This document shows positions 10,925 to 32,389 of a DNA stretch of 32,389 nucleotides, one piece after another. Every line of letters starts with the position of its first letter. Position 1 is the stretch's first letter. The position numbers and the translations under genes are program-made. Where the stretch lies: positions 1 to 32,389 of the forward strand of contig DAOUQP010000010.1 of NCBI GenBank assembly GCA_030625575.1. Reading direction: 5' to 3'. The notes under the pieces were generated by a model, which was not told the origin of the DNA, made no database searches, and worked only from the letters and a program-made list of their open reading frames with translations. The stretch is from Eubacteriales bacterium (lineage in GTDB: Bacteria > Bacillota > Clostridia > Peptostreptococcales > Acidaminobacteraceae).

Positions 10925-11010
10925 AGTAGATAAAATCAAGAAAATACATAACTTATATATAGTCTTTTTTAAACACCTTCTCATCCTCGTGAGTAAATAG
11001 TAGCATTCTT

Positions 11011-11176: not shown

Positions 11177-11199
11177 TTTCTTTATTCAATTACAAGCAA

Positions 11200-15068: not shown

Positions 15069-16049
15069 TTATTTTATAATTTCCAGTTCTCTAAGAATTG
15101 TCTCATAGATTCCATTCATTTCGTTCAAGAACTCCTCATACTCTGCTCCATCCATATATCCTTCAACAATCATGTTTTTGCCTAAATAATCATCTTTCCA
15201 TGCTTCTGTTTGTACTAATCCTTTGATCATCTCTGTATAATAAGCTTTTTCTTCTTCTGATATTCCTGCTGGAGCTGCAACTCCACGGAACAAGCTAACT
15301 GTAATGTCGTATCCTAGTTCTTTAAAAGTTGGTACATCTGGCATCATATCAATTCTTTCTTCAGTACTTATTGCCAATGCTTTGAAATCACCTGATTTCA
15401 AGTAATCATAAGCAGTATTTGGATTTGTAATAGTAAAATCAATTTGATTTCCCATAAGAGCTGCAATTACTTCACCATCTCCTTGATAAGGAATATAGTT
15501 CAATTCTTTTCCTGACATTTTCTCAAGCATTACAGTTACAATATGCTCTATGGTACCTAATCCTGTACCTCCAACATTGATAGCCTTGTCACTCTTTAGA
15601 AAATCCTCCAATGAGGTAAACTCAGATTTCGAATTGATTAGAACCATCTCTGGATCGATTCCCAATCTTGCAATTGGAGTGAAATTTTTATAATTCAGTT
15701 CTAAATCCGAAGATAATGGTGTAGTGATAAATGATGATGTCGTAGACATTAAATAATGTCCGTCACCTGCATGAGAATTTACATATCCCATACCTACTGC
15801 AGCACTACCACCTGGTTTATTAACAACGTTGATAGTTGTATCGATTATCTTTTCATCAGTGATGATTTTCGCCATCGCTCTAAGCATTGTATCATGTCCG
15901 CCACCAGGACCATAACATGCTACGAATTCCAAAGGTCTTTCAGGAAAACTTGCTTGTTGATCACCGTCACCTGCATTTTGATCAGAACTCTGTTGACCAC
16001 ATCCCACCATTAGCATAACAATCATAATAAACAAAACTATTTTTTTCAT
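15069..16049 (-). CDS. tctC: Tripartite tricarboxylate transporter binding lipoprotein TctC
   Basis: This 326-residue precursor begins MKKIVLFIMIVMLMVGCGQQ, a lipoprotein signal peptide with cysteine 17 as the likely lipidated residue. The mature protein carries the Bug/TctC signatures: FPERPLEFVACYGPGGGHDT, INVVNKPGGSAAVGMGYV, NVGGTGLGTIEHIV and LKALAISTEER. It captures the substrate outside the membrane and delivers it to TctAB. Ligands of this family are mostly carboxylates and related small acids. It is preceded by a DUF4387 gene and an AtuA-family gene, suggesting the imported compound is processed by those proteins. Confidence 0.94.
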   Translation of the reverse strand: MKKIVLFIMIVMLMVGCGQQSSDQNAGDGDQQASFPERPLEFVACYGPGGGHDTMLRAMAKIITDEKIIDTTINVVNKPGGSAAVGMGYVNSHAGDGHYLMSTTSSFITTPLSSDLELNYKNFTPIARLGIDPEMVLINSKSEFTSLEDFLKSDKAINVGGTGLGTIEHIVTVMLEKMSGKELNYIPYQGDGEVIAALMGNQIDFTITNPNTAYDYLKSGDFKALAISTEERIDMMPDVPTFKELGYDITVSLFRGVAAPAGISEEEKAYYTEMIKGLVQTEAWKDDYLGKNMIVEGYMDGAEYEEFLNEMNGIYETILRELEIIK

Positions 16050-16075: not shown

Positions 16076-16399
16076 TTAAACGGGGATCTGAATTTCAATC
16101 AATGGAGCATGTTGTTGAGCTCCATATACATCTGTGTCCCCAATACTTCCTGAGTCTATTGGTCTTTTCATGGTTATTTTTATAGCCATCGCCGGTTCAT
16201 AAAAAATTATACCCGATATTTCTTCAACCGATATATTGTAAAGTTTACAAATAAGTTCATTTGTAATAATACCTGAATTCTTTACAACCCTATAATTTTC
16301 TTCTTTGTCAAATATTATATCTATAGTTAATTCAAATGGTCCAGAATTTTTACTTCTCAAGACCTTCGCAAGACTATACAACGATTTAGTTTGAATCAT
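16076..16399 (-). CDS. DUF4387-family protein, partner of AtuA-like protein
   Basis: This 107-residue soluble protein has features I associate with DUF4387: LAKVLRSKNSGPFELTIDII, then ISVEEISGIIFYEPAMAIK and the C-terminal SGSIGDTDVYGAQQHAPL. The family is almost always encoded next to, or fused with, AtuA/DUF1446 proteins. Here the genes overlap by 14 bp, which implies a complex and translational coupling. No biochemical activity of this small protein is known to me; it may be a subunit or stabiliser of the AtuA-like enzyme. Confidence 0.85.
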   Translation of the reverse strand: MIQTKSLYSLAKVLRSKNSGPFELTIDIIFDKEENYRVVKNSGIITNELICKLYNISVEEISGIIFYEPAMAIKITMKRPIDSGSIGDTDVYGAQQHAPLIEIQIPV

Positions 16400-17774
16400 T
16401 TTTTAATTCCTCCTTATTAAAAAGGTCAAAATATTCTATAGGAAATAATTCTTTAGGATCATCTACATTAATCAAATGATACAATGTAAATTTGTATACA
16501 GGACCAAATTCAATATCTGATGGAGAATATAAAAAAGCTAAATTACCAGCTGTTGATTTTCTACCTTCATATCCATAATGCAACATAGTAGACCTAGCTG
16601 CCGAACAAATCGTATTTGCAAGTTCTTGAGTAGAAGCTATCGCTTCAATAACTATACCTAATTCGTGTGATATTTGTTTACTCGGTTCTCTTATGCCCAT
16701 AACTCCATTCTTCCCATAAACGTGGTAGATAATTTGATACTCATCAGTGGGAATTTCATCAAAATAATTTTGAACTTGATTGATCACCTCTTCTTTAATA
16801 TCTTCTATGTTCTCAATCATAATAGGATCTCTTATTCCAGCAATGACCAAAGTTCTGTAGGCTACTTTAACGGCACCTTCTAGTTTAATAGTATATTGTT
16901 TAGGGAATTCAATTTCACTACCAGATACCTTAACTGTTGAATCAGAATACTGTTCAAATTTACATTCAGATAAATCTAGTTTTATTCCAGGTCCATGTAA
17001 TATATATGGATGATCCTTTTCGTAAAGTGTATGTCCAGCAACTGACGTAGTATAACATTTTCTTATAGGATTCAACGCTTCCACAATAAAGTGATCTTTT
17101 CTTAAATGTCCTATTATACAATCTTTTGTTGTTCCAGGTTCTGCACATAATGCCCCGCATTCTAAAATTTTTCCTAAATGATATGCTAAAGCTGGATCAA
17201 ATCCTTTTAATATTGGATATGCAGCAAATGCAGATGGATCGTATGCTCTTCCTGCCACAATTAGTTGAGCTCCATTCTCTAATGCTTCTATTATTGGTTC
17301 AACGCCCATTTGTCCAACAATATTATTAGTTTTCTCCAAATCATTTTCAGTTAATTGTGGTACAAATTTCATAGGAAAAAGATTATTTGTTTCTAATCTG
17401 TTTCGAACATATTCCTTTTCAATATCTGCATGTATAACTGCTGTTTTGAAAAATAATTTCTTCTCTTGAATAATCTCTTCAATAATTTCCATTGTCCATT
17501 CCACATGCTTCTTCGCTCCAGCTCCACCCGCTGAACCAATGATTATCGGAATTTTCAGATCGAATCCTCCTGCTAGTATTAATTCTAGGTCCTTTTTTAC
17601 AGCTCTCTTACTTACAATTCCTACTCCAGCACCTAATTTATGCGGACCAGCATCTGTTGATCCAGCATCTACAGCAATTACATCTGGTTTTTTTTCTAAA
17701 CCTCGTTGAAATGATTCTTTAGGAAATCCATACCCTAAAATTCCACAAGGTGAAAGAATTTTAATTTCAATCAC
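16386..17774 (-). CDS. AtuA-family (DUF1446) catabolic protein
   Basis: This 462-residue cytoplasmic protein starts with GTG at 17774, 10 nt after AAGGAG. The N-terminus (ILSPCGILGYGFPKESFQRG) and the segment VIAVDAGSTDAGPHKLGAG identify the AtuA family, named from acyclic terpene utilization in Pseudomonas. Other conserved parts are IIGSAGGAGAKKHVEW and LIVAGRAYDPSAFAAYP. It is the first gene of an operon with a DUF4387 protein and a tripartite carboxylate transporter, a recurrent arrangement. It probably acts on the imported acid or its CoA ester, but reaction and substrate are unknown; terpene use should not be assumed from the family name. Confidence 0.88.
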   Translation of the reverse strand: MIEIKILSPCGILGYGFPKESFQRGLEKKPDVIAVDAGSTDAGPHKLGAGVGIVSKRAVKKDLELILAGGFDLKIPIIIGSAGGAGAKKHVEWTMEIIEEIIQEKKLFFKTAVIHADIEKEYVRNRLETNNLFPMKFVPQLTENDLEKTNNIVGQMGVEPIIEALENGAQLIVAGRAYDPSAFAAYPILKGFDPALAYHLGKILECGALCAEPGTTKDCIIGHLRKDHFIVEALNPIRKCYTTSVAGHTLYEKDHPYILHGPGIKLDLSECKFEQYSDSTVKVSGSEIEFPKQYTIKLEGAVKVAYRTLVIAGIRDPIMIENIEDIKEEVINQVQNYFDEIPTDEYQIIYHVYGKNGVMGIREPSKQISHELGIVIEAIASTQELANTICSAARSTMLHYGYEGRKSTAGNLAFLYSPSDIEFGPVYKFTLYHLINVDDPKELFPIEYFDLFNKEELKNDSN

Positions 17775-19310: not shown

Positions 19311-20048
19311 CTAATAACTATATTTAATAGGATTGGCAGCACCTTTTTTCCGATATTCACTAGGCAAAATTCTACCCACATAAAGTTGTCTTATTTCACA
19401 TTCCGCTTTGTTTCCTTCAAATCCATATCTATTCTCAGTATCTACATTTAAATTAGGAAAATTTGCTTTTGTTGCTTTAAGCCACTTTGTCGGCTTAAAA
19501 ACTTCTCTAATAATTCCATTTGAAACCGCAAATACATATTCAGCCTTTTCCGCTCTACTTTTATTCAGTTTCCACGCATATCTTGTTGCTTCATAAATTT
19601 TTCTCTCTAAACCACTTGCATTTATATTTATGATAATAACCTTATGTGAAATTTCAGCAACTTCAGCCTTGTACTTTCTAATTATCTCTTTTGAATTCAT
19701 CGGTCCATATTCATTACTATATTTTCCACCAACAATATTTTTCGCACTAGGATAAGCGTCGATAAGTGCTGCTTCTACAGCAAATGCAATTTCTTCATCC
19801 ATACCATGACGATGGATTATATGGATTACTTCTAACCCTGATAAATGAATTTCACGAATATTTTGTAGCTTATCATTCAATTCATCAAATTTATCCATAG
19901 AATTTGCAAGCTCAATATGCGAAAAAACTCTATTCCCCTTACCTTTACCCACATAGAATGTTTCTCCATTCCTTGGATCAATTAATCTATAAACATAGTA
20001 TTTTAATTCTTCAATTACCTCATTTGGAAAGAAACTTATATTGCCCAT
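19311..20048 (-). CDS. LEM-3-like GIY-YIG nuclease-domain protein
   Basis: This protein has about 245 residues. The start is set at 20048, where AAGGGGGTATTTT precedes ATG; a longer frame exists. The N-terminal domain is a GIY-YIG fold of the LEM-3 type: YYVYRLIDPRNGETFYVGKG with KGNR, then IIHRHGMDEEIAFAVEAALID, whose glutamate is the likely catalytic residue. The C-terminal ~90 residues (EYVFAVSNGIIREVFKPTKW, then FEGNKAE and a terminal KGAANPIKY) look like a separate small domain that I cannot name. Such proteins are candidate DNA/RNA nucleases in defence or repair. It sits 60 bp after the PD-(D/E)XK-like gene. Confidence 0.78.
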   Translation of the reverse strand: MGNISFFPNEVIEELKYYVYRLIDPRNGETFYVGKGKGNRVFSHIELANSMDKFDELNDKLQNIREIHLSGLEVIHIIHRHGMDEEIAFAVEAALIDAYPSAKNIVGGKYSNEYGPMNSKEIIRKYKAEVAEISHKVIIININASGLERKIYEATRYAWKLNKSRAEKAEYVFAVSNGIIREVFKPTKWLKATKANFPNLNVDTENRYGFEGNKAECEIRQLYVGRILPSEYRKKGAANPIKYSY

Positions 20049-20108
20049 AAAATACCCCCTTAACCTTGCTTTAATCTTTAATAACCGCCACAATTTCTAA
20101 TGAAATTA

Positions 20109-20579
20109 CTAGTTATAATGTTTAAAAATTATACTTGCTTTTCCAATCATTTCATCATATTCAATTATTGTGACTCCGACTGGTACCAAGTGTCCGTAAG
20201 TCCTTATATAGTATTCTGCGAGTGTTTCATTTCTCTTCTCAGAATAATCTTTAAGTATGAAAAAATATTTTTCAATATTCTTTGGTAGTAATGAAAAGTA
20301 AAGCATCGCTTCATTCCATACAGTGAGTTTTGCACTTGGAACGTTATTCCCAGAAGTCCACTTATGAGATTTGCATTCTACAACAAATTCTCTTCCATTA
20401 TTTTCAGTCCCACCCAAATCAAATTTGTGAATTTTCTTTTTATCAAATCCAAGTGAGATACCATAATTAAGCGATACATTTTTCATATTCTTCTTGAAAT
20501 ATTCCAGTACCATCTTTTCGAACGTAGCACCTACATGAGCATTGCTTCTAGATCCTTCTCTTTGAAAATTGTTATTCAT
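20109..20579 (-). CDS. PD-(D/E)XK-like nuclease-fold protein
   Basis: This protein has about 156 residues. The ATG at 20579 overlaps the stop of the ADP-ribosylglycohydrolase gene by 8 bp, with AAAGGTGA upstream. A likely restriction-nuclease-fold core is visible: E21, D54 in KFDLGGTENNGREF, and E68-x-K70 in VVECKSH. This gives the D...ExK arrangement of PD-(D/E)XK nucleases. A possible role is cleavage or recognition of nucleic acid, or a degraded structural version of the fold. I do not recognise the exact family. Confidence 0.65.
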   Translation of the reverse strand: MNNNFQREGSRSNAHVGATFEKMVLEYFKKNMKNVSLNYGISLGFDKKKIHKFDLGGTENNGREFVVECKSHKWTSGNNVPSAKLTVWNEAMLYFSLLPKNIEKYFFILKDYSEKRNETLAEYYIRTYGHLVPVGVTIIEYDEMIGKASIIFKHYN

Positions 20580-21366
20580 AATAATCACTCACCTTTGGAA
20601 ACATTTCATAGAAAGCAAGATATTTTGACTTCAAGAAACTATCCAAAATCTCCAATGCCTTCTCCTTAATTTCATCAGGAATGTCATACGCCGCCTCAGC
20701 TATACTTCCTGTTATTGCCGCCAATGTATCACTGTCTCCCCCTAATGAAATAGCATTTCTTATAGCATCTTCAAAGTCTTTACTTTCAAGAAATGCAACA
20801 ATCGCTTCTGGGACTGTCCCTTGGCATGAGACGTCAAAAGAATACGACGGTCTTATTTCATCAAGAGTTCTATTCAAATCATATCCATATTTATTCTCAA
20901 TGTATTCTTTTATATAATTCTTTGACTTTCCACTTCTAGCTAAAAATACACACGCAGCTGTCGCTATTGCGCCTTTAATACCTTCTGGATGATTATGAGT
21001 GACTTTTGCGGTTTTCTCTGCTAGTTTTTCAACTTCATCAATTGTATCTGCTGACCATGCAGTTGCAGACACCCTCATAGCAGATCCATTACCATAACTA
21101 TTGTATGGTAATGAATCATTTGAAGATAACCAAATCTTAAAATTACCACCATAACCCGCATTAGGATATTTTCTTCCAAAGTATTTCATTGAATCAATAA
21201 AATTCTTATCATTTCCACCATTAACAATTCCTTCAGCTATTGCCAATGTCATTACAGTATCATCTGTAAAAAAGCATTTGTCACTAAAAAAAGGGAAATC
21301 CTTAGTTTTAATATTGTTCCATTCATATATAGATCCAACTATGTCACCAATAATTGCTCCAAGCAT
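20572..21366 (-). CDS. ADP-ribosylglycohydrolase family protein (DraG-like)
   Basis: This protein of about 264 residues starts at 21366 (GAAAGGGGAAATAAA then ATG), 1 bp after the VWA stop; the longer frame to 21429 overlaps that gene. The start MLGAIIGDIVGSIYEW and the metal-binding segments FTDDTVMT and GGDSDTLAA are diagnostic of the dinuclear-Mg ADP-ribosylhydrolase fold. TYNSYGNGSAMRV-type sequence (here PYNSYGNGSAMRV) and HNHPEGIKGA are also present. The enzyme should remove ADP-ribose from a modified protein or nucleic acid, or act on O-acetyl-ADP-ribose. It sits beside a macro-domain gene, which supports ADP-ribose metabolism, but no ADP-ribosyltransferase is recognised. Confidence 0.92.
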   Translation of the reverse strand: MLGAIIGDIVGSIYEWNNIKTKDFPFFSDKCFFTDDTVMTLAIAEGIVNGGNDKNFIDSMKYFGRKYPNAGYGGNFKIWLSSNDSLPYNSYGNGSAMRVSATAWSADTIDEVEKLAEKTAKVTHNHPEGIKGAIATAACVFLARSGKSKNYIKEYIENKYGYDLNRTLDEIRPSYSFDVSCQGTVPEAIVAFLESKDFEDAIRNAISLGGDSDTLAAITGSIAEAAYDIPDEIKEKALEILDSFLKSKYLAFYEMFPKVSDYYE

Positions 21367-21367
21367 T

Positions 21368-22021
21368 TTATTTCCCCTTTCTTCTACTTTTGAAATCTTT
21401 TTCAATTCTATCTTTCCAATTTTGATCAATTGATTTATTTGTTCTTATCATACTAACCGTTTCACTAATTACTTCGTAATTTAAAACGGTTCCTTCTTTA
21501 TCTGGATTATAATTTACAGCTCTATCTTCATCAATTCCAAATTTTTCTGCAGTTGCAACAGCATCAATATTGGCACCTAAAAAAATAAATTCCCAGCCAT
21601 ATTTATTCTTTTGCCTCTCTATCATTGATTTAATATTTCTATAGGAATATTCTCTACTTACATTCTCCATACCATCAGTTGTGATTACAAATAGTATGCG
21701 TTCAGCTCTTTCACCTTCCGCTGTATGCTTTTGTACATTCCCAATTTTACTAATGGTTCTCCCTATTGCATCTAAAAGTGCAGTGCTTCCACGAACAAAA
21801 TACTCTTTATCTGTTACAAGAGATATCCCTTTTAAGTTGATACGATCATGCAAAAGCTCATATTTATCATCAAATAATACAGTAGTAACTATTGCTTCTC
21901 CATCTTCTGATTTCTGTTTTTCAAGCATACTATTATATCCACCTATAGTATCACTTTCAAGGCCACCCATTGATCCGCTTCTGTCTAAAATAAATACTAG
22001 TTCAGTTAATTTTTTTTTCAT
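21368..22021 (-). CDS. VWA-domain protein with intact MIDAS motif
   Basis: The ATG at 22021 follows TTGGAGGAAGAAAAA, so the upstream TTG frame is not used. The product has 217 residues and is almost entirely a von Willebrand A domain. MIDAS residues are in FILDRSGSMGG (DxSxS), the threonine in GSTALLDAIG, and the distal Asp in ITTDGMEN. No signal peptide or membrane helix is seen, so it is cytoplasmic. Small stand-alone VWA proteins of this type (TerY-like) act as metal-dependent scaffolds in stress and conflict systems. Here it precedes the ADP-ribosylglycohydrolase by 1 bp, implying coupled production. Confidence 0.88.
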   Translation of the reverse strand: MKKKLTELVFILDRSGSMGGLESDTIGGYNSMLEKQKSEDGEAIVTTVLFDDKYELLHDRINLKGISLVTDKEYFVRGSTALLDAIGRTISKIGNVQKHTAEGERAERILFVITTDGMENVSREYSYRNIKSMIERQKNKYGWEFIFLGANIDAVATAEKFGIDEDRAVNYNPDKEGTVLNYEVISETVSMIRTNKSIDQNWKDRIEKDFKSRRKGK

Positions 22022-22099: not shown

Positions 22100-23113
22100 T
22101 TAAACACCTAGTAAATTTTGTTCAAATGCAAAAAGTGCTTCATTTATTTCGAAAATATTGTAATTTTCTTCTTCAATAAAGAAGCTAATAATAATATCAA
22201 ATTTGCTACTTCTTGATAAGGCAAATCCAGCCTTTTGAAGTATATCTTTAGTCTCATCTAAATTAAGTTCAAGTGCTATCGCAAATGCCAGCACGGTCTG
22301 CTTTGTTGGATTATAATTTGTACTATTTCTTATCTTTGAAAACGTTTGTTTTGTTACATTCGCCTTTTTATATACATCCGGATCCTTTAAATCTTTTTCA
22401 TCTATAAGCCTTAAAAGCATCTTTGAAAACGTTTCATCAATATTTTTCACAAAATCTTCAAGTTTCCTTTTTTTAGTTTTTGGGATTAGTGTACTTTCAC
22501 TACTCTTTTGAAGAGATACATCTTCAAAGTATATCGCTTCTTCTAATGATTCAGTTCTTCTATGCATCCTATTGAGATTGTGCTCGACAACATAGTTATC
22601 ATCAATATATTCTTCTATTGATGAAAAAAGTTTCTCTGAAAGTCTGTAGGCCTTTTGATCATAAACAACCAAATAAACCGTTAATTCATGATTTAATAAA
22701 AACTCTCCTATAGTTGAAATCGCTGTCCCTAGAGCTCTGTCTTTTGGATATCCAAATGTTCCAGAAGAAATAAGTGGAAATGCTATGCTTTCAAATCTTC
22801 TTTCTACAGCTAATGCCAATGAATTTTTATAGCACCCTATCAAAATATCTTCTTCTCCATCGTCACCGCCACTCCATACCGGTCCAACAGTATGTATTAT
22901 ATATTTTGACGGCATATTATATGACCTAGTGATTTTCACTTGACCAGATCTTAATTCTCCTAGCCTACTCGTTTCTTCACTAAGCCGAGTACCAGCAATC
23001 TTATGAATGGCACCATCAACACCTGCAGTCCCGAACATATTTGAATTTGTTGGATTTACTATTGCATCAACATGTATTTTAGTAATATCATTTCTAACTA
23101 TTTCTAAAGGCAT
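22100..23113 (-). CDS. Macro-domain protein with C-terminal helical HTH-like domain
   Basis: In this 337-residue protein residues 1 to ~160 are a macro domain. Visible signatures are VDAIVNPTNSNMFGTAGVDG with AIHKIAG, YIIHTVGPVW, and FPLISSGTFGYPKDRA (the diphosphate loop). The usual NAAN is NPTN and the glycine loop is FGTAG, so binding may differ from MacroD enzymes. Residues ~210-337 are helical and resemble an XRE-like region seen fused to macro domains in Firmicutes: ANVTKQTFSKIRNSTNYNPT, then ALELNLDETKDILQKAGFAL. AGGAGTGATGTA precedes the ATG. It probably binds or hydrolyses ADP-ribose derivatives; the C-terminal part may bind DNA or a partner. Confidence 0.88.
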   Translation of the reverse strand: MPLEIVRNDITKIHVDAIVNPTNSNMFGTAGVDGAIHKIAGTRLSEETSRLGELRSGQVKITRSYNMPSKYIIHTVGPVWSGGDDGEEDILIGCYKNSLALAVERRFESIAFPLISSGTFGYPKDRALGTAISTIGEFLLNHELTVYLVVYDQKAYRLSEKLFSSIEEYIDDNYVVEHNLNRMHRRTESLEEAIYFEDVSLQKSSESTLIPKTKKRKLEDFVKNIDETFSKMLLRLIDEKDLKDPDVYKKANVTKQTFSKIRNSTNYNPTKQTVLAFAIALELNLDETKDILQKAGFALSRSSKFDIIISFFIEEENYNIFEINEALFAFEQNLLGV

Positions 23114-23471: not shown

Positions 23472-24293
23472 CTATTTGTTTTGCTTTACAATCTTCATTC
23501 CAATAAATTGTTTTAGTATCTTATTACCATCTTCAGCTCTTTTAACTTTTAACTTAAGATAAACACCTTCCTTGGTAAAATCAAAACTTTCAACTGGGAA
23601 TCTATTCAGTATTTCATCTGTTAATTCTTGCACTTTAAATATAATATCCTTTGTATCACTTCTGTGCTTTTTGCCGAATTCATCAGGAATTTCCATACGA
23701 GTAAATTGTTTATCTTTAACCTCAATATCCATCATTCTTGAAATATAAACTTCTTCAAATTTCTTTGCTTTTATATCTCGTATAAGTAATTTCCAAATAT
23801 ATTCTTTTATTCTTAATTCATAAGGTTCTACTCTATATTTAATAAATTCTTTGCCTGTGAAATATTGAAACTCTATAATATGTCTTTCAATAGTTGCTAT
23901 TTTTAAGTGATGAAATTTATCTTGCATATTCAAAGAAATATCATCTGTATTTACCCATAAAGTTGCAGCTTCATTAAAGTATTGTTTCATCATTCTCAAT
24001 GCATAATCTAATTTAGCATTGGGTAATTTTTTAATATCTTCAAGTGCTTTTATTAAACTTTCTGTTTCAGATGCAGTCAGCTTTGTTTTATTTATTGCAT
24101 ACTTTTCATTTAAAACAATTCCACCATTAACTCCTTTTTGCATATAAATTGGAACACCTGCTTTTATTAAGTCTTCAACATCACGATAAATAGTTTTTGT
24201 TGATACATTAAATTTATCAGCAAGTTCTCTTGCTGTACTATGCCTTTTTTCTAAAAGCAAATATATCATTTCTAACATTCTACTTATTCTCAT
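23472..24293 (-). CDS. WYL-domain/DeoR-type HTH regulator (YafY-like)
   Basis: This regulator of about 273 residues starts at the ATG at 24293 (AAAGGTG eight bases upstream). It has an N-terminal HTH_11 winged helix (RMLEMIYLLLEKRHSTAREL, then FNVSTKTIYRDVEDL) and a WYL-type sensor region (IIEFQYFTG...YRVEPYEL...IWKLLIRD). WYL proteins often regulate defence and stress operons and can sense nucleic acids or nucleotides. It is the first gene of the unit that continues into the ADP-ribose genes, 89 bp before the DUF7662 gene. It is a plausible autoregulator and operon regulator. Confidence 0.9.
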   Translation of the reverse strand: MRISRMLEMIYLLLEKRHSTARELADKFNVSTKTIYRDVEDLIKAGVPIYMQKGVNGGIVLNEKYAINKTKLTASETESLIKALEDIKKLPNAKLDYALRMMKQYFNEAATLWVNTDDISLNMQDKFHHLKIATIERHIIEFQYFTGKEFIKYRVEPYELRIKEYIWKLLIRDIKAKKFEEVYISRMMDIEVKDKQFTRMEIPDEFGKKHRSDTKDIIFKVQELTDEILNRFPVESFDFTKEGVYLKLKVKRAEDGNKILKQFIGMKIVKQNK

Positions 24294-24519
24294 TTTATTC
24301 ACCTTTGCTTTAAATTTTCTAAGCTATCATATTATTTATCATTAAGCCAATAACTATTCACTATTAAATTTAATCTAAGCACAATAATTTAAAATACTAG
24401 ATTCTTTAAATCCTGTAATTATCGCAATTTATTCTTTATAAAGCAATACTATTTATATTACTATTATATTTTTAAAAAATATCTAACTTAGAATTAATAA
24501 CAAATATATAAAACTGTCA
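24294..24519. other. Gap between the regulator and the last cassette site
   Basis: About 225 bp of very AT-rich DNA containing the regulator's ribosome binding site. A TTGACA occurs on the minus strand at about 24514-24519, but no good -10 follows at 17 bp. No gene is seen. Confidence 0.4.
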
Positions 24520-24642
24520 AATAAGGTTGCCCACAGTTAGCACCGTATCCCATCTTTGTTTCGTTTTATTTTTTAATTTCATATCCAAGTAAATTACATT
24601 CTCTTTAAACACTAGGATATGAAGGGAACTGACGTGTTAGGC
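24520..24642 (-). repeat. attC-like site 5 (end of cassette 5)
   Basis: Read on the minus strand it starts with R'' GCCTAAC (24636-24642), continues with the shared arm ACGTCAGTTCCCTTCATATC, and returns through the complementary arm GGGATACGGTGCTAACTG. The R' position (24520-24526) reads CCTTATT, which has lost the GTT core. It is the most degenerate outer end, as expected for the array terminus. Confidence 0.7.
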
Positions 24643-24677
24643 GATGTGTTTTTCGGTGTATAACTATATAATTCGAA

Positions 24678-25595
24678 TTATTCTAGCTCAGAATCAGGCA
24701 CCATTTTTCTTACAGATATATTTCCTCCACCATTATGAGGTATAGTCTGTTTCATTTCTATTGTATCCAGTTTTAGTTCAGTGCCTTCTTCAGTAATACT
24801 GTGCCCAACTATATTTATCAATAATCCTAGAGTTCTCTCTTCACCTTTTTTTAATTCACCCATGTGATTCATAAATAGTGATTGAGAAAATGGTTCACTA
24901 ATACTCGATTTGCTTTCGAATAATGCCATTAACAACTTATTCATATCCTCAATACTTTTAATAATTGTATCAATAGCATCAATATCCTTTTCATATGTAA
25001 ATAATCTTACTGACTTAACTTCTGGATTGTCTGGCAAAATAACGGATATTTTCCCAATTCCATCTTTTAGAATATAAAAAGAGTTATCAACTAATGATGT
25101 ATGATGTTCATTAATATTTCTGATATCTCTAATGTACTTACCACCATTATTCCAATATTCTTTAACCAATTGATTCAACTCTTCAGAAAATCCAAATGAA
25201 GTTAGGTTTTTCTTCAGTGCTTTATTTAAACTACTTGGAGCGTTACCATTTACTTTAAAAGCCTTTTCACAAATTTTTAGTATTTGATTTTGCATAATTA
25301 CTATTTGAGACAATACAGAAGGAATTTGAGCATATATTTCAAAAAGTGGTTCAACCGAAACTGCAATTCTATCGTAATCACCAAGTACTATTTGACTCTT
25401 ATAAGCTTCTACTAATTGTAAAGCACTTTTTTCTGCAATTAACATCCTATCGACACTTACCATTGAGCATGAAACCCGATATAGAAAATGACTAACTAAC
25501 TCTTGCAATTGATGATCCGAACTAGCTTCATTAAGTATTGAATTTAGTACATTGAACATGTTCGCATCATTTAATCTTCGATATAAATACCTCAT
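24678..25595 (-). CDS. Cassette 5 protein, possible HEPN-like
   Basis: Start at 25595 is chosen because GAGGAGAGCGATT precedes this ATG; the frame could extend to 25622. The product has about 305 residues, is helical and soluble, and belongs to no family I recognise. Near residue 159 it has RNINEHH in the context RDIRNINEHHTSLVD, which fits the R-x4-H motif of HEPN ribonucleases or their inactive relatives. The C-terminal ~60 residues end in a Gly/Asn-rich NGGGNISVRKMV segment. It stands alone in its cassette, ending 36 bp before attC-5. A defence or toxin role is only a hypothesis. Confidence 0.7.
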   Translation of the reverse strand: MRYLYRRLNDANMFNVLNSILNEASSDHQLQELVSHFLYRVSCSMVSVDRMLIAEKSALQLVEAYKSQIVLGDYDRIAVSVEPLFEIYAQIPSVLSQIVIMQNQILKICEKAFKVNGNAPSSLNKALKKNLTSFGFSEELNQLVKEYWNNGGKYIRDIRNINEHHTSLVDNSFYILKDGIGKISVILPDNPEVKSVRLFTYEKDIDAIDTIIKSIEDMNKLLMALFESKSSISEPFSQSLFMNHMGELKKGEERTLGLLINIVGHSITEEGTELKLDTIEMKQTIPHNGGGNISVRKMVPDSELE

Positions 25596-25657
25596 AATCG
25601 CTCTCCTCTTATAGAAACTCAATATATTTTTATAAACTCTATATAGAAAAATATGTT

Positions 25658-25780
25658 ACATAACGTTTCGCCTGTTTACGGCGTATCCTATCTTTGCTTC
25701 GTTTTATCTTTAAACTTTATATCCAAGCAAATCACAATCTCTTTAAACACGAGGATATGAAGGGAACTGACGTGTTAGAA
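25658..25780 (-). repeat. attC-like site 4 (end of cassette 4)
   Basis: On the minus strand R'' is TTCTAAC (25774-25780), followed by ACGTCAGTTCCCTTCATATC, and R' is GTTATGT (25658-25664). The inner right arm (ATACGCCGTAAACAGGCGAA) has diverged from the family sequence ATACGACGGTAACTGCGGGA, which weakens pairing. R' is 5/7 complementary to R'' of the next site. Confidence 0.78.
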
Positions 25781-25803
25781 GATGTTTCTTGCCTTTAATA
25801 TAT

Positions 25804-27030
25804 CTATTCATAGTAATCAGTCATCATTTCAGAGCGATATTCCGCTTCAATTTCTGCTTTTATTTCATTATGTGATGACATCATGGCATTAACGCCACTT
25901 AAGAACGACAAAATCTCGCCAAAAAATAAATTAATGTGTTTGACATCAAGGTATTTGGGATTTTTAAAATGATATGTCAAGTACTTATTAACAGGATATC
26001 TAAATTTGTCGCTTTCGCCATCAAAATCGTTAATTTGTTTTATGTACAACCCTGCGTCTTTTGTCGTAGAATCTCCTTCTGGTGCATTCGCATGTTCACA
26101 TATTTCATCTTTGATTAAATTCCATAAACCCATTACCTTATGTTTTTTGTCATGTACATGCGCAATTGCTTCTTGAAAAGTATATGAACACTCTTCAACT
26201 AATGTTTCTTTTAATGATAGTTCTAAAGCATTTCTAAACAAATAGCACATTGGAAGAAATAAACTTTCAACATTCTCCTCTTCCTTTTCAATTTGCTTAA
26301 ATAGAAAGTCTGCTGACTCAGTATAGGCAGTCGTAAATAAATAAAATTTATAAGCAGAATATTTGTAACCTAAGACACTCTGATCATGATAATGTCCACC
26401 TTCTTCCAAAAAGATTGGTTCTAAATCAATATAATCAGTAATACTTCCAAAAGTTGAGTTATAGATATCACATAATAGTTCGTACGCTACTTCCATTTTA
26501 TTAGCAAAAGCTACTAAGTTAATATGTGTTTGCTTATTGAATATTGGCTTAATCGAGTATTCTCTATCAAAATTGATAGAAAATGGATATCTAAAAGAGT
26601 CTGACTCTTTATCAATTTCATTTATACTTTTGAAATAATTTGTTATCCATTCAATTCCATCAGCATCATCTGACAAAATAGATACTTCAAGTTGTTTTAC
26701 CATCTCGAATAATTCTCCAAGATTATGAAAAGTCTTTCTTAAAAATTCAATACCTTTTTTGCTATCCTTTATATGCTTAAAACATATAGATTTGAGTACT
26801 AATTCGATACTGTGTCTATATAAAAAAGCTAAAGGGAAAAAGTAACTATCCAGTGCTCGAATGTCATTTCCATTAATTAAATAGTCCACTAATAATGATG
26901 CGCTAGTTTTATACTTAATTGCATAATTATAAAAAGCCTTATCTAATGGCTCAGAACAAGATAAATTAACTTTTAATTTACTCTTTCTCGAATAGAAATT
27001 TGCATCTGGTACAACCCATTTAAAATCCAT
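25804..27030 (-). CDS. Cassette 4 protein with tandem HEPN-like repeats
   Basis: This 408-residue soluble helical protein is built from two homologous halves. Copy 1 has FFPLAFLYRHSIELVLK (64-80), a histidine in FHNLGELF (near 102) and ESDSFRYP (142-149). Copy 2 has FLPMCYLFRNALELSLK (258-274), a histidine in KKHKVMGLWNL (near 297) and ESDKFRYP (339-346). The spacing within the copies is almost equal. The RHxIExxLK...HxL...FRYP pattern resembles HEPN-like proteins seen near defence genes. GGAGATAGTAGA precedes the ATG. I cannot assign a function; RNA cleavage or an antitoxin-like scaffold are options. Confidence 0.75.
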   Translation of the reverse strand: MDFKWVVPDANFYSRKSKLKVNLSCSEPLDKAFYNYAIKYKTSASLLVDYLINGNDIRALDSYFFPLAFLYRHSIELVLKSICFKHIKDSKKGIEFLRKTFHNLGELFEMVKQLEVSILSDDADGIEWITNYFKSINEIDKESDSFRYPFSINFDREYSIKPIFNKQTHINLVAFANKMEVAYELLCDIYNSTFGSITDYIDLEPIFLEEGGHYHDQSVLGYKYSAYKFYLFTTAYTESADFLFKQIEKEEENVESLFLPMCYLFRNALELSLKETLVEECSYTFQEAIAHVHDKKHKVMGLWNLIKDEICEHANAPEGDSTTKDAGLYIKQINDFDGESDKFRYPVNKYLTYHFKNPKYLDVKHINLFFGEILSFLSGVNAMMSSHNEIKAEIEAEYRSEMMTDYYE

Positions 27031-27084
27031 TCTACTATCTCCATTTCATATGCTTAACTTCACTAAATCTAGGCAATAAATGTC

Positions 27085-27206
27085 TGCTACTGTTCCCGCA
27101 GTTACCGTCGTGTCCTATCTTTGCTTCGTTTTATTTTTAAATTACATGTCCAAGTAAATCATAATACTTTAAGCACGAGGATATGAAGGGAACTGACGTG
27201 TTATGG
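27085..27206 (-). repeat. attC-like site 3 (end of cassette 3)
   Basis: On the minus strand R'' is CCATAAC (27200-27206), an exact complement of R' of attC-2. The inner arms (ACGTCAGTTCCCTTCATATC and GACACGACGGTAACTGCGGG) pair well. The R' position (27085-27091) reads AGTAGCA instead of GTTAGAA, so this outer core is degenerate. Confidence 0.78.
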
Positions 27207-27240
27207 GATGGTTTTACAGGTACAGCTAACAACACGTTAA

Positions 27241-28086
27241 TTACTCTATCATTTCATTAGTTATTTCATGTTTAGATAAAAGCATACTATTACTAAGATT
27301 TGTATCATCTGAAAGTCTTAACACTGAGTTATTATGATCAAACAAATATTGTGGGTCAGAATCATAGTAGTCATATTCTCTATGTAAAATTCGAGTCACT
27401 AAATACTTTGTCTTTTCTCTGTCTAATAATTCCTGATTGTCATCAAATATTATTTGTGATTTTGGTATACAATATTCATAACAATAGAACTTACTATTAT
27501 TACAATAATCCCTGTCTATTTCATGATTATGTAAAAATCTAGCTAATATTTGGATAAATTCTGGCCCAAACCATAGCGACCGAGTATAGTCATTTTTATA
27601 AATTAGGTCTTTTAACGCAAATCCATTAATACAATGGTCAATTCTAGAATTATAACCTAAACGCAATCTTAAATAATGAACATCATTTAATGACGTATCA
27701 TCTAACGGCACATACATATTTTTATAGTATAAATCTAGTTTTCCATCATTCTTGAAAAACTCTATCTCATGTCTTTTTAGGAATAAACTCATAGAATTTT
27801 CTGTCGATAATAAATCTACTAAATTTAGTAAATCATCAGCTTCATCATAATCATTTAACCTACGCGACAAATGATAAAAAAGAATGTTATCAACACTATC
27901 ATCAACTAATTTTTCATCAATAAAATTGCCTAAAACCTCATTAAGAATGTCACCATCGACAACCTTGTCTTTTGTTGATAGTCTTCTAGCTTCATAAAAA
28001 ACCTCGTTTAATTCATTCATAGAAACATTTAAGTAACTGCAAAAACTACTCTCCATGCTCTCTTTAGAACGTGTATCTATATACAT
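27241..28086 (-). CDS. Cassette 3 protein, unknown
   Basis: The ATG at 28086 lies eight bases after GAGGAG; a GTG directly before it is an alternative. The product has 281 residues. It is soluble and rich in Asp, Asn and Tyr, with segments FYHLSRRLNDYDEADDLLNL, KLDLYYKNMYVPLDD and DHCINGFALKDLIYK. I recognise no known domain with confidence. It is a single-gene cassette, ending 34 bp before attC-3. Novel proteins of this sort are common cargo of cassette arrays. Confidence 0.75.
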   Translation of the reverse strand: MYIDTRSKESMESSFCSYLNVSMNELNEVFYEARRLSTKDKVVDGDILNEVLGNFIDEKLVDDSVDNILFYHLSRRLNDYDEADDLLNLVDLLSTENSMSLFLKRHEIEFFKNDGKLDLYYKNMYVPLDDTSLNDVHYLRLRLGYNSRIDHCINGFALKDLIYKNDYTRSLWFGPEFIQILARFLHNHEIDRDYCNNSKFYCYEYCIPKSQIIFDDNQELLDREKTKYLVTRILHREYDYYDSDPQYLFDHNNSVLRLSDDTNLSNSMLLSKHEITNEMIE

Positions 28087-28165
28087 CACATACTCCTCTT
28101 TATATATTTATAACTCTGCTTAGCGAAGAATACTTTGTATAACTCATTTTCTAAGTAAATCTTTC

Positions 28166-28287
28166 CCATAACGTCCCACAGTTACCGTCGTATCCTATCT
28201 TTGATTCGTTTTATCTTTAAACTCTATTTCCAAGTAAATCTCAATCTCTTTAAGCACGAGGATATGAAGGAAACTGACGTGTTATGG
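28166..28287 (-). repeat. attC-like site 2 (end of cassette 2)
   Basis: This is the best-formed site. On the minus strand R'' CCATAAC (28281-28287) and R' GTTATGG (28166-28172) are exact complements, extended to 8 bp. The inner arms CAGTTTCCTTCATATCC and GGATACGACGGTAACTG pair at 14 of 17 positions. Unequal unpaired spacers (ACGT and TGGGAC) separate inner and outer arms, as in folded attC sites. R'' begins 7 bp after the stop codon of the DUF2971 gene. Confidence 0.85.
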
Positions 28288-28294
28288 GAAGTTT

Positions 28295-29203
28295 TTATTC
28301 ATTCTTGAATTCTATTTTTTCAAAACTCTTTGTATTTTTCTTTTTAATTATTTCATAGTACTTAATTTTTTTTTCATTATATTCTTCGTAAAGATTGATA
28401 TAGCTTAATTTGTCTTCTCTAGAACATGTTAAACCAAAAACAATTTCTGATATTCTACCTGGATAATCAAATAACCCTTCTTCTTCTTCAACATATCTCC
28501 ACTCTTCTTCATAATTCCAATGTGCTGACTTTGTAGAAATAGCGTTTCTAAACGTACTATCCTCAATATTAATCTTTTTTTCTGGATAAGGACGACCCAT
28601 TTCATCCATATAAAAAGATGTAATGACCAAAAAACCTTTATTGTCAAAACTAGGGAATGTATCAGAATAATTCACTTCTAATAGTTTTCCAGATTCCTTA
28701 TTAATCTCATCATCAAATTCAAACCCAATTGCAATACCTCTTGATTCATCAGCATAATGCGACCACATTAATGGTGAAAAACAAGTTTTAGACATACTAA
28801 AAATTCCAACATTTTTTAATTGTTCATCAAACTTTTCAAATGTTTCTCGGATATCAGTAGGATAATAACCTGTTTTACCTTTAACGAACTCTCTAAAAAA
28901 TTTATATTTCCTAATAAGTGTAGGTTTTTTTCTAATCGTTTTTAATATTTTTTTCATTTCTATAGTTCCTAAACCGTAAAAGCTTAAATTATTCTCCAAA
29001 TGTGAAACTAGATTCATAGTAAATCCACTTAAATGAGCTTCCATATCCTTTTTTGCTTCTTTTGTCATCCAATCTGCAGCAATTTCTTGAATAGTACATT
29101 CAAAAGGATCGTTTAATCTTTCTGCACATGACAACCAAACTTTTTTTTCAGTAATTATTTTTTCAGTATTTTCAGATATACTTCTATATTTGTATAATTT
29201 CAT
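28295..29203 (-). CDS. Cassette 2 protein, DUF2971 family
   Basis: This 302-residue soluble protein shows the DUF2971 pattern: LYKYRSISENTEKIITEKKV (start), WLSCAERLNDPFECT, then FSMSKTCFSPLMWSHYADES with RGIAIGFEF, and HWNYEEEWRYV near residue 235. DUF2971 proteins are of unknown function and often occur in mobile islands and integron cassettes. TAGGTGAGAAATT precedes the ATG. The gene is alone in its cassette, starting 37 bp after the R' of attC-1. Confidence 0.88.
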   Translation of the reverse strand: MKLYKYRSISENTEKIITEKKVWLSCAERLNDPFECTIQEIAADWMTKEAKKDMEAHLSGFTMNLVSHLENNLSFYGLGTIEMKKILKTIRKKPTLIRKYKFFREFVKGKTGYYPTDIRETFEKFDEQLKNVGIFSMSKTCFSPLMWSHYADESRGIAIGFEFDDEINKESGKLLEVNYSDTFPSFDNKGFLVITSFYMDEMGRPYPEKKINIEDSTFRNAISTKSAHWNYEEEWRYVEEEEGLFDYPGRISEIVFGLTCSREDKLSYINLYEEYNEKKIKYYEIIKKKNTKSFEKIEFKNE

Positions 29204-29240
29204 AATTTCTCACCTACTTTTTATTTTGAATAAGAATTTC

Positions 29241-29363
29241 CCATAACGTTCCCGCAGTTACCGTCGTATCCCTATCTTTGCTTCGTTTTATCTTTTAATT
29301 TTATATCCAAGTAAATCGCAATCTCTTTTAACACGAGGATATGAAGGGAATTGTGTGTTAGAC
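29241..29363 (-). repeat. attC-like site 1 (end of cassette 1)
   Basis: On the minus strand R'' is GTCTAAC (29357-29363) and R' is GTTATGG (29241-29247). R'' differs from the R'' of sites 2 and 3 but is exactly complementary to the lone GTTAGAC at 31046-31052. This is what site-specific cassette insertion predicts. R'' lies 8 bp after the stop of the second gene of the cassette. Confidence 0.84.
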
Positions 29364-29371
29364 GAAGTAAA

Positions 29372-30502
29372 TTATGGTAGTATAACGAATTTTTTATGAT
29401 CTTCTAAAAACCACCTTGTCCTATTTTTATCTATATTTCCACTTACTTGAATTAATTTCTTATCTCTATGAGCATTACAAGCTGATTTATATTCTTCATC
29501 ACTAAGTTGTACTTTGCAATTATGTGTTTTTCTCTCAATACTTTCATACCAGCTTACAGAAATTACATTATCTATAAGTAGCCCTGTCATTGAGTCTTTC
29601 CATTTAGCATTCAAACTTGTAATCTTACCCATTATCATTATTTCTATATAATTTTCTTGATTCTTATAATATTCCGATAGAATTTTTAGTTTGATAAAAT
29701 CCGAATCCTTTAATTCAACTTTTATTTTTCCTTCATTTTTATATTCACTATCAAAATAGTTACTATATTTGATATTTGTTTCAATTTTCATTTTATTATC
29801 AATATCATTAATTTCTAACAAAGAATCACACATATTTGCGTTAAATCCAATTCTATACGATAACTCTTTTAAGCGTTCCATATCTTCTTCATTATTAATA
29901 AAGTTTAGCCCATTTTGTATTCTTTCTATTGCTCTTCTTACAATTGGAATCTCCGCATCTCCTGATAAAGTAATTTGTCTATCTATTGTGCAATAATTAT
30001 CTGATTCAATATTAAAAATAAAACTACCTATTCCAGTCTGCGCTAATCTAAAGGTCTTTAAAAAACTTCTAGATTCTCTTGAAAGTCTTCTATGATATGG
30101 ACGTTTATATTCCTCATTTCTAATAGAATGAACAATTAAATCTTTAATCCCCTTCAAAACATCTGCTGCTTCATCAAATGGAAGAGTTCCTTCGTTGGCC
30201 TTTTGTGAAATAATCCTAAACATCAATAAATCACGATAATTTTCTGCTAGCGAATAAACCGCTTGGTCTTTGTCAATGTTTTCTAACACTGAAAAAGTAT
30301 TTATTGCACTATCCAATCTCTCAAAATAATCAGAATACTTTTTTGACGAAGGAATAATAACAGTGTATTTTTTATCATATTTCACATAATACTTTTCTAA
30401 AATGATTATTTTATTGTTTGCATGATTATCAATACATTCCCAATCATAGTTTTTAAAATACATTTTTACAGATTCAGGGGTAATAGATTTATAAATACTC
30501 AT
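29372..30502 (-). CDS. Cassette 1, second gene: unknown 376-residue protein
   Basis: This soluble protein has no membrane segments and no family I can name. The N-terminal ~60 residues are basic and aromatic (KIIILEKYYVKYDKKYTVII). A helical centre contains KRPYHRRLSRESRSFLKTFR, and the C-terminal ~120 residues look beta-rich (IEIMIMGKITSLNAKWKDSM), possibly an OB-like fold. Its ATG overlaps the TGA of the DUF4365 gene by 4 bp, and AAAGGGGGATTACG is the ribosome binding site, so both proteins are made together. A partner or antitoxin-like role to the DUF4365 nuclease-fold protein is possible but unproven. Confidence 0.75.
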   Translation of the reverse strand: MSIYKSITPESVKMYFKNYDWECIDNHANNKIIILEKYYVKYDKKYTVIIPSSKKYSDYFERLDSAINTFSVLENIDKDQAVYSLAENYRDLLMFRIISQKANEGTLPFDEAADVLKGIKDLIVHSIRNEEYKRPYHRRLSRESRSFLKTFRLAQTGIGSFIFNIESDNYCTIDRQITLSGDAEIPIVRRAIERIQNGLNFINNEEDMERLKELSYRIGFNANMCDSLLEINDIDNKMKIETNIKYSNYFDSEYKNEGKIKVELKDSDFIKLKILSEYYKNQENYIEIMIMGKITSLNAKWKDSMTGLLIDNVISVSWYESIERKTHNCKVQLSDEEYKSACNAHRDKKLIQVSGNIDKNRTRWFLEDHKKFVILP

Positions 30503-31011
30503 CGTAATCCCCCTTTCTTAGCTTCTTCCATTAATTCAATTAATTTTGATGGTGTTAATAATTGATTTCGTGGAATTTTTATAGTCTTCGTTTTACTATT
30601 TTCACTAACCTTCAAACCTACCAGTGAAATATACCATGCACAATCTCTAAGAATAGTATTATCTTCGGAAACCTGCAACCATTCATGATTATCTTCAGGT
30701 AATTTCATAACAATAAGAATACGCGGTATTCCTCTATCAGATTTAATTAGATCATTATATGTATCAACCTCTAAATTGTATGTAATATAATCCTCATATA
30801 CAGTGATATTCTTTGTTGCTTTAAGCTGAAAATCGATAGCCCATCCAGAGTCGCTCATTTTATTGTTTGGCAGAACTTCAACTTCTCTATATGAACCATC
30901 TACTTTGTAGTCAAATTCAAATCCAACTGCACAGTTCATACCAGCTTTATAACCCACAGCTAGAGCATACGCCCTGCTCATTCCTTCCTTCATATGTTGA
31001 CTAGTAATCAT
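30499..31011 (-). CDS. Cassette 1, first gene: DUF4365 protein (nuclease-like fold)
   Basis: This 170-residue protein has the features of DUF4365: MKEGMSRAYALAVGYKAGMN, GFEFDYKVDGSYREVEV, and DSGWAIDFQLKATKN. The D60-x-Q62-x-K64 triad is a variant PD-(D/E)XK core (D/Q-x-K). GAGGCGATAAAG precedes the ATG. DUF4365 proteins occur in restriction-like, mobile and integron settings. It begins 34 bp after the GTTAGAC cassette boundary and overlaps the next gene by 4 bp, making an unusual two-gene cassette. Confidence 0.85.
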   Translation of the reverse strand: MITSQHMKEGMSRAYALAVGYKAGMNCAVGFEFDYKVDGSYREVEVLPNNKMSDSGWAIDFQLKATKNITVYEDYITYNLEVDTYNDLIKSDRGIPRILIVMKLPEDNHEWLQVSEDNTILRDCAWYISLVGLKVSENSKTKTIKIPRNQLLTPSKLIELMEEAKKGGLR

Positions 31012-31370
31012 CTTTATCGCCTCATTTATATTAATAATTTATTTTGTCTAACTCCTAGATTCTCGTATTGCAGAAACTCATCTAAAATAATAGACTTCCC
31101 GTACTTCGAAACTATTACTTATCTACAGCTTTTTTAACGTGACACAAATCATTCCTAATTAACACAATCATAATCTCTTATTCTAATATTTATTATTTTT
31201 AATTAATCTATTAATTACATTTTAGTATATGACAAGTTTTATGTCTATTTATTTCCAGTTTTTATTAATTTTTTCTATTTCTTTAGTATAGTAGACCTCG
31301 TTTTTGTCTTGTTTAATTGCGTTCGTTTATTTTTAATAGTATACTTAAATCAGAAAATCAAGAGGTCAAA
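31012..31370. other. Intergenic region at the head of the array
   Basis: About 360 bp separate the divergent first cassette and mobilization module. It contains the GTTAGAC boundary (31046-31052), AT-rich DNA and the ribosome binding site of the small membrane protein. A TATAGT on the plus strand at 31287-31292 is a possible -10, but I see no good -35. No integrase gene is present here. Confidence 0.5.
31046..31052 (-). other. Cassette-boundary core site GTTAGAC (attI-like)
   Basis: On the minus strand GTTAGAC fits the integron core consensus GTTRRRY. It is the exact reverse complement of R'' of attC-1. Sequence before it (CGAGAATCTAGGA) does not continue as an attC of this family, so it could be the attI junction or the end of an unrelated site. 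Confidence 0.55.
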
Positions 31371-31685
31371 ATGAAAATTTTAGGAAATATAATCTTACTA
31401 CCATTAAAATTAACCTGTCTTATTGGATTTGTTATTTCAATAATCGGAATTATATTATCAACAATATTTGAGCACTTATCTAATTTAATCCTTGGAATAT
31501 TTATTTCACTTAGCATACTTCTAATATTGGCCTACTTAATTTTATATGGAATAAACATAACTGAAGCTCCAATAAAGTCTACTATTATTGCTATGTTCAT
31601 TCTTACAATAATATTATCGCTAATACCTTATGTCTTTAAATGGCTAAAGAACATTTTTAAGAAAGGTCTAATTTTTTGGTTCTAA
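31371..31685 (+). CDS. Small membrane protein of the mobilization module
   Basis: The ATG at 31371 follows AAGAGGTCAAA; the open frame upstream has no ribosome binding site. The 104-residue product has about three hydrophobic segments (IILLPLKLTCLIGFVISIIG, then ILGIFISLSILLILAYLIL and a C-terminal helix) and a basic C-terminus. Small membrane proteins starting MKILG(N/K)I are, to my knowledge, frequent just before mobC in Tn1549-type elements; the role is unknown. Confidence 0.75.
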   Translation: MKILGNIILLPLKLTCLIGFVISIIGIILSTIFEHLSNLILGIFISLSILLILAYLILYGINITEAPIKSTIIAMFILTIILSLIPYVFKWLKNIFKKGLIFWF

Positions 31686-31797: not shown

Positions 31798-31831
31798 TCC
31801 CCTAAAAAAATTGAAAGGACTTATCACACTT

Positions 31832-32161
31832 ATGGCAGAAAGAGAAAGAAAACATCAACTTAAAATTTGGGTAACCAAAGAAGAGAAAGATATAATATTT
31901 GAAAGAAGAAAGCTTGCAGGTTTTAGAAATACTGGAGCATATATTAGAAAAATGGCTATTGATGGTCGTATTTTTAAAATAGATCATACACCTCTTAAAG
32001 AAACTTCTTCTCTAATGACAAGAGTATCAACTAATATAAATCAAATAGCAAAACGTGTAAATTCAACTAACAATATTTATAAAGATGATGTTGAAGAACT
32101 TAAGGAGATGACAAACGAAATATGGCAATTACTAAAATCCATCCTATCAAAACTACCTTAG
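31832..32161 (+). CDS. mobC: Mobilization relaxosome protein MobC
   Basis: The ATG at 31832 is preceded by AAAGGA 12 bases upstream; the TTG at 31811 would place the ribosome binding site inside the frame. The 109-residue product has an N-terminal ribbon-helix-helix-type region (KHQLKIWVTKEEKDIIFERR, then KLAGFRNTGAYIRKMAIDG). The C-terminal MobC helix is SSLMTRVSTNINQIAKRVNS. It binds oriT and recruits the relaxase. It overlaps the relaxase gene by 40 bp. Confidence 0.88.
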   Translation: MAERERKHQLKIWVTKEEKDIIFERRKLAGFRNTGAYIRKMAIDGRIFKIDHTPLKETSSLMTRVSTNINQIAKRVNSTNNIYKDDVEELKEMTNEIWQLLKSILSKLP

Positions 32162-32389
32162 ACTTTAGCATCGATTATATTTGCGATCCTAATAAAACTG
32201 ATGAACAAATTTTAATTTCATCTTATAGATGTGGATACAAAACTGCTGCTCTTGAGTTTAAAAATACAAAAGAATCAATGAATAGTTCTTCAAAAAATCT
32301 TGCAAGACATTTGATTCAATCTTTTATGCCTGGAGAAGTTTCACCAGAACTAGCTCATGATATTGGAAATGAATTATGTCTAGAACATC
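32122..32389 (+). CDS. Relaxase/mobilization nuclease, N-terminal part (cut by window end)
   Basis: From ATG at 32122 the frame is open to the last base (89 codons). It reads MAITKIHPIKTTLDFSIDYI, then CDPNKTDEQILISSYRCGYK, and LARHLIQSFMPGEVSPELAH with DIGNELCLEH. This is the start of a MOBP/Tn1549-type relaxase, which nicks oriT and pilots the strand during conjugation. The catalytic histidine triad would lie beyond the window. A weak AAGGAG lies 15 bases upstream, and translation is probably coupled to mobC. Confidence 0.85.
   Translation, partial: MAITKIHPIKTTLDFSIDYICDPNKTDEQILISSYRCGYKTAALEFKNTKESMNSSSKNLARHLIQSFMPGEVSPELAHDIGNELCLEH

Follow-up and report, generated by a model that had tools for sequence, protein, structure and literature searches.

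An integron-like cassette array without a recombinase gene in a probable mobilizable element of a Clostridia bacterium

The window, that is, the whole stretch of 32,389 nucleotides analysed here, is a single contig (C138) of a metagenome-type genome of 2.29 Mb in 215 contigs that is 73.6% complete. It carries five repeats of ~125 bp on the (-) strand between positions 24522 and 29363, placed between genes and each running from R'' through a short ACAC or ACGY spacer to L'', a central part, L', a spacer of the GGGAAC type and finally R'. Complementary R''/R' and L''/L' ends and cassette-specific cores mark these repeats as attC sites, with attC4 and attC5 decayed. They delimit five cassettes that are headed by an attI site, beyond which lie the genes of a mobilization module (Table 1). 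The two ORFs of cassette 1 form a candidate two-gene defence pair according to their PADLOC matches, and the first cassettes of the window are of interest as carriers of candidate defence genes. Exact core matches in cassettes 1 to 3, the lost GTT core of attC3 and the decayed stems of attC4 and attC5 show that the array is intact near the attI junction and decaying at its far end; given the decay of attC4 and attC5, part of it may be dead. As only attC2 clearly folds better as a single strand than shuffled sequences (z of -2.70, against a weak -1.36 for attC4 and ordinary values for attC1, attC3 and attC5), folding energy is not used here as proof, and a looser core finder gave a weak R'/R'' statistic for the window. 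Elsewhere in the same genome, contig C165 (locus L050) has two attC-like sites (15751-15866 and 16342-16475) flanking a deaminase-like ORF, without an integrase.

Table 1. Positions of the array, its attI head and the flanking genes in the window
Feature	Position	Strand	Remarks
HTH_11/WYL-type regulator	23472-24302	-	62% identical to the protein of relative G019 that adjoins the same mob genes
attC5	24522-24643	-	Decayed stem; GTT core lost
Cassette 5	24522-25663	-	ORF 24678-25622, no assigned function
attC4	25659-25781	-	Stem decayed
Cassette 4	25664-27089	-	ORF 25804-27030, no assigned function; R'' mismatches its start
attC3	27083-27207	-	R' core damaged (GTAGCAG); GTT core lost
Cassette 3	27090-28171	-	ORF 27241-28089, no assigned function; start and R'' complementary 8/8
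attC2	28165-28288	-	Best preserved of the five; folding z -2.7 against shuffled sequences
Cassette 2	28172-29246	-	Start GTTATGGG and R'' CCCATAAC complementary 8/8
Cassette 2 ORF, DUF2971, PDC-S31 (candidate defence family)	28295-29203	-	
attC1	29240-29363	-	Member of the repeat family; stem mismatched at 9 and 12, as also seen in relatives
Cassette 1	29247-31051	-	Two ORFs and attC1; R'' and start core match 7/7
Cassette 1 ORF, PDC-M02B	29372-30502	-	PADLOC E 3e-77
Cassette 1 ORF, DUF4365, PDC-M02A	30499-31011	-	PADLOC E 3e-56
attI site	31046-31102	-	Relatives' attI matrix; box spacing
attI core G|TTAGAC	31052-31046	-	Expected crossover between 31052 and 31051
attI CGAGAA box	31065-31060		At -13
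attI second box ACGGGAAG	31102-31095		At about -50
Promoter/operator-like region of mob operon	31210-31370	.	TTTTA.TA.A.GACA and TTTTTGTCTTGTTTA conserved with relatives
Small membrane protein of mob element	31371-31685	+	51% identical to G019 protein
MobC/NikA-like relaxosome protein	31811-32161	+	PF21983, PF05713
Relaxase (MobA/VirD2)	32122-32389	+	PF03432; 79% identical to G019 relaxase; cut by contig end

The preliminary description of this DNA had proposed that the heptamer GTTAGAC opens cassette 1 with no attC of the same family ahead of it. We found that GTTAGAC (31046-31052, (-) strand) is exactly reverse-complementary to R'' of attC1 (GTCTAAC, 29357-29363), and that none of the attC repeats lies upstream of it and all five lie downstream (about 24522-29363), in agreement with that proposal. 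The bare heptamer was discarded as evidence on its own, being at chance level (three occurrences in the window for 2.06 expected). An attI matrix built from seven sites of relatives, with the window site left out, ranked the array head first among all window positions, and equal or better scores occurred neither in 3 Mb of simulated sequence nor among 107,000 other positions of the genome itself. The second CGGGAA box stands at -49, compared with -53 in relatives G027 and G014. Both the matrix rank and the second box indicate that the head of the array, which adjoins the cassettes with an expected G|TT crossover at the junction CGAGAATCTAGGAGTTAGAC, is a true attI homologous to those of relatives rather than a generic junction, and the attachment-like character first ascribed to it is thus strengthened by its being the best matrix position, with boxes near native spacing. 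Loss of GTTAGAC among relatives had been named as a refuting test, but it is not an apt one, as only GTTR is kept among relatives because the remaining core bases belong to the cassette and pair with its own R''. A third match to the attI pattern in G027 (position 2400439) was rejected as a chance match inside a gene, which shows that a hit to this short pattern is no proof in itself.

We compared 41 genomes of the family (taken as Fusibacteraceae, Clostridia), among which clearly related repeats are present in the genome itself, G025, G026 and G027, and different attC-like repeats are found in other family genomes beside the same type of recombinase. In relatives, a tyrosine recombinase of 337-340 amino acids is encoded directly upstream of the matching attI and co-directional with the attC array, the attI lying about 65-145 bp past the recombinase stop. 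Two arrays, A and B, with at least 44 attC sites between them are present in the complete genome of G027; array A has a tyrosine recombinase of 340 amino acids just upstream in the same direction, and G025 is arranged alike. A CGGGAA-7 nt-GTTR site 3' of the recombinase gene opens the first cassette in G027, G025, G012, G014 and G015, and the core of the first cassette exactly complements R'' of attC1 in the window, G027 array A, G025 and G012. Cassette cores match 7/7 in 35 of the 44 G027 cassettes (permutation p 2e-5 per array, with the AACGTT core used for this R'/R'' statistic). The 17-nt attC stem is mismatched at positions 9 (T.C or A.C) and 12 (A.C) in 41/41 G027 sites, usually also at position 6, and covaries at position 3; positions 9 and 12 are mismatched as well in attC1 to attC4 of the window and in G014 and G012, whose stems are unrelated. 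By analogy with the extrahelical bases of classical attC sites, these conserved mismatches may serve to mark the strand. The attC stems of G015 (Fusibacter sp. 3D3; locus L072, 995-1107 and 2530-2642) contain what looks like an additional G without a partner, which is nearer to the classical extrahelical bases.

Array B of G027 offers a parallel to the window. Its attI shares 89% identity with the attI of array A over 90 bp, and ahead of it stands the recombinase 5' region only, the gene itself being gone. Whole cassettes are 100% identical across the two arrays (A8=B5, A11=B7, A12=B2=B6 and A16=B4=B17), these common cassettes stand in different orders in A and B, and some cassettes of array B, its first among them (B1=B12), recur there as exact copies, a pattern of cassettes moving as units in this relative. 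The identical cassettes and the duplicates in array B are most simply explained by a recombinase acting on it in trans. Homologous recombination between A and B could account for some of the sharing, but does not easily fit single cassettes bounded exactly by G|TT.

At the head of the window array the recombinase gene is absent from its usual place, and it is absent from the assembly. A translated search of the window for a recombinase or a remnant of one returned none (best E 0.79), no remnant lies between 31102 and 31371, and the assembled genome (73.6% complete) has no member of the cognate recombinase family, bearing out the earlier suggestion of an integrase-less array. Recombinases in the same assembly (again, 73.6% complete) are distant Xer-type and phage-type genes only. 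Its Xer-like genes C12, C119 and C78 were rejected as cassette recombinases, having partial matches at 25-46% identity, and the C12 protein groups with XerC/XerD in a tree. The divergent intI that was initially expected at attI is not the arrangement of this lineage, in which the recombinase is upstream of attI and reads in the cassette direction.

An additional domain is described as the defining trait of IntI (PMC2426708, PMC9668308); integron recombination has been said to depend on it, and it serves to identify integrons (PMC9668308, PMC2426708). The number of residues between the GKG and HxLRH motifs is 106-108 in five IntI, 68-73 in XerC/XerD-type proteins and 65-66 in 76 of 76 measured relatives of the G025/G027 recombinase, the IntI-specific domain being absent from every one of the 76. 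These recombinases have a HARP-like domain at the N-terminus, at or barely over the Pfam cut-off, and score 201-203 with TIGR02249, for which the cut-off is 265. They fall outside the IntI clade in a quick tree, where the IntI group (support 96) is separate from a HARP/XerA-like group (98) and both are apart from XerC/XerD (100). According to Foldseek, IntI4 and XerA are the best matches to the predicted fold, but the model is modest (pLDDT 79, pTM 0.54) and we base no claim on it. Searches with IntI1 in plasmids retrieved near-identical copies only. Because the defining feature of the enzyme was tested in relatives and found lacking, we do not file the array of the window as an IntI integron; judged from its sequence, it appears to behave as an integron array without being one of the IntI type.

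Several features are shared with chromosomal integrons (Vibrio IntIA, class 1 IntI1), namely an attI with direct repeats and a G|TTR crossover, attC sites with R'', L'', L' and R', co-directional, duplicated and shuffled cassettes and, with IntI, the recombinase C-terminus NPLDxL. Differences lie in the recombinase of the relatives, which has the shorter inter-motif stretch without the IntI-specific domain, has the HARP-like N-terminal domain and reads toward the array from upstream of attI, and in the attC stems, which have paired mismatches where those of chromosomal integrons have mainly bulged bases. The window resembles a cluster of attC sites lacking integron-integrase (CALIN) in having at least two attC sites and no integrase nearby, on a contig that ends 1.3 kb past attI, but unlike a CALIN it keeps a recognizable attI, sits in a mobilizable element and would have a cognate enzyme other than IntI. 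The XerA and HARP-domain tyrosine recombinases (NCBIfam NF040815, PDB 4a8e, 5hxy) are, together with IntI4, the nearest in sequence and fold, and the members studied here are distinguished by being tied to attI/attC arrays.

The place where an integrase would stand is occupied by a small membrane protein, a MobC/NikA-like protein and a relaxase, as had been read from the open reading frames (Table 1). The mobC gene, the start of the relaxase gene and the adjoining DNA to about 31698 share 75-76% identity with parts of G019, G029 and G030. These three genomes have the same small membrane protein ahead of the mob genes, their mob module lies 170-250 bp from a divergent HTH_11/WYL-type regulator, and they are the only ones with a regulator at the similarity seen here. 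In the window, that regulator sits past the far end of the array, away from the mob genes, and on the promoter side of the mob operon conservation begins at about 31210. The segment from about 24303 to 31210, which holds attI, the five cassettes and some hundreds of bp of unassigned flank, is therefore an insertion between the regulator and the mob operon. No attI-like site was found in the matching intergenic DNA of the three relatives. Neither a target duplication nor a transposase that would explain the entry of the array was found.

The mobC, relaxase and WYL-type regulator are those of Bacillota integrative and mobilizable elements with a serine recombinase, as in G019, where a large serine recombinase and a sigma-like gene are also part of the mob element, indicating that the element is probably integrative and mobilizable. 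The window copy contains the relaxase and relaxosome protein of such an element and differs in that an integron-like array separates the regulator from the mob operon; an integrase belonging to the element and its ends are unseen in the window, whose right end stops inside the relaxase. Scanned window genes included no T4SS or other transfer machinery, the element being incomplete at the contig end. The earlier proposal that the array is carried, or cut, by a conjugative element holds for carriage by an element with mobC and relaxase; it does not hold for cutting, as the array was instead inserted, and mobilizable is the better term than conjugative, transfer machinery being unseen in the window. 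The array-free mob element of G019 (locus L166, 3862-7926) has a 1354-aa SIR2-like protein as its regulator-side cargo. A GIY-YIG protein of the window (19311-20093) matches the defence family PD-T4-3 (E 2e-105) and is encoded near an ADP-ribosylglycohydrolase (20572-21429) and a macro-domain protein with HTH (22100-23113), which together are possible defence cargo of the element. Towards the other contig end, a cobalamin riboswitch (10999-11189; Rfam RF00174, E 1e-26) precedes a metal-chelatase-like and ABC-uptake-like gene group, named from reading.

The explanation we prefer, with a probability of about three in four, is that the window contains the attI and five cassettes of an integron-like system that is missing its recombinase gene at this site, has been inserted in a mobilizable element and is served in trans by a cognate enzyme of the HARP-domain type. 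Such an enzyme would be a XerA/IntI-like tyrosine recombinase without the IntI-specific domain, which would bind the attI repeats and the folded attC strand and exchange strands between G and TT of GTTR, resulting in insertion or excision of cassettes. For the window it would be supplied in trans, either from elsewhere in the cell or by a new host after mobilization. Under this scheme attC would recombine as a single strand, the window array would be open to activity in trans, and the array would be transferred along with the element, which would give an attI array without a recombinase a means of travelling on a mobilizable element.

A recombinase gene that is present in the organism but outside the assembly, perhaps on the same element past the relaxase, would make the array displaced rather than orphaned. 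This is compatible with the trans step of the preferred explanation, and the fragmented, 73.6% complete MAG, the end of the contig in the relaxase and the single recombinase for two arrays in G027 all speak for it. We nevertheless consider it only tentatively, since the recombinase of examined relatives is directly upstream of attI, where the window has mob DNA, and the genes that follow the relaxase in G019 are host-like and include no integron recombinase. Insertion off target, at some chance attG-like site near the mob promoter with a convergent likeness to attI, would correspond to the accepted origin of integrase-less attC clusters (PMC8618304), and the site is indeed intergenic; the presence of both attI boxes with spacing near native, a matrix score unequalled in 3 Mb and the absence of such a site from the corresponding intergenic DNA of three relatives make it improbable.

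Artefactual readings fare worse. The genome is of metagenome type, and its assembly might have misjoined an array contig to a mob-element contig, but we regard this as very improbable, as parts of the same element (regulator and mob genes) lie on both flanks of the array, which a random misjoin would not yield. Five similar intergenic repeats of ~125 bp might also be ordinary dispersed repeats (MITE or REP type) instead of recombination sites. Complementary ends specific to each cassette, fixed orientation and the cognate recombinase beside attI in relatives argue against this, and whole-cassette transfers with exact boundaries, seen in the identical cassettes of G027, practically exclude it.

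A genome-wide scan identified 80 loci with this type of recombinase in the Bacteroidota, Nitrospirota, Nitrospinota, Spirochaetota, Bacillota, Aminicenantota, Altarchaeota, Micrarchaeota and others, several of them with downstream same-direction repeats that have attC ends. A strict attI/attC test requiring an exact 7-nt core match and an exact 8-bp stem was positive for 15/47 downstream regions as compared with 2/47 reversed and 0/41 upstream controls, the cores being located 88-121 bp past the recombinase stop codon. It seems likely to us that a second class of integrons with HARP-domain recombinases, widespread in bacteria and archaea, has been missed, of which the window array would be a recombinase-free derivative in a mobilizable element, served in trans; if the class exists, it would have been overlooked because searches require the IntI-specific domain. 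The single complete integron and some CALIN reported in Firmicutes with IntegronFinder 2 (PMC9024848) fit a class missed by IntI-based searches. In the open-access papers searched, we found no description of this system, of integrases without the additional domain or of integrons in Fusibacter. If true, cassette-shuffling arrays with a domain-less recombinase would widen the definition of the integron, explain orphan attC clusters in phyla described as integron-poor (Bacillota, Bacteroidota, Nitrospirota and some archaea) and provide a natural test of the purpose of the extra domain of IntI.

On plasmid pHH1107 (locus L273, 3052-5150), a truncated TnpF/XerD-like recombinase with 51% identity to that of G025 precedes tet(X3). 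A GTTATGTG core stands 172 bp past the recombinase stop, and one half of a repeat resembling attC comes after tet(X3). By its appearance, tet(X3) is a stranded cassette belonging to a recombinase of related type, a reading that is only a lead because the core and R'' mismatch. The neighbourhood of xerD and tet(X) has been called unexplained (PMC7473080), and the position of tet(X3) beside a related recombinase suggests medical relevance.
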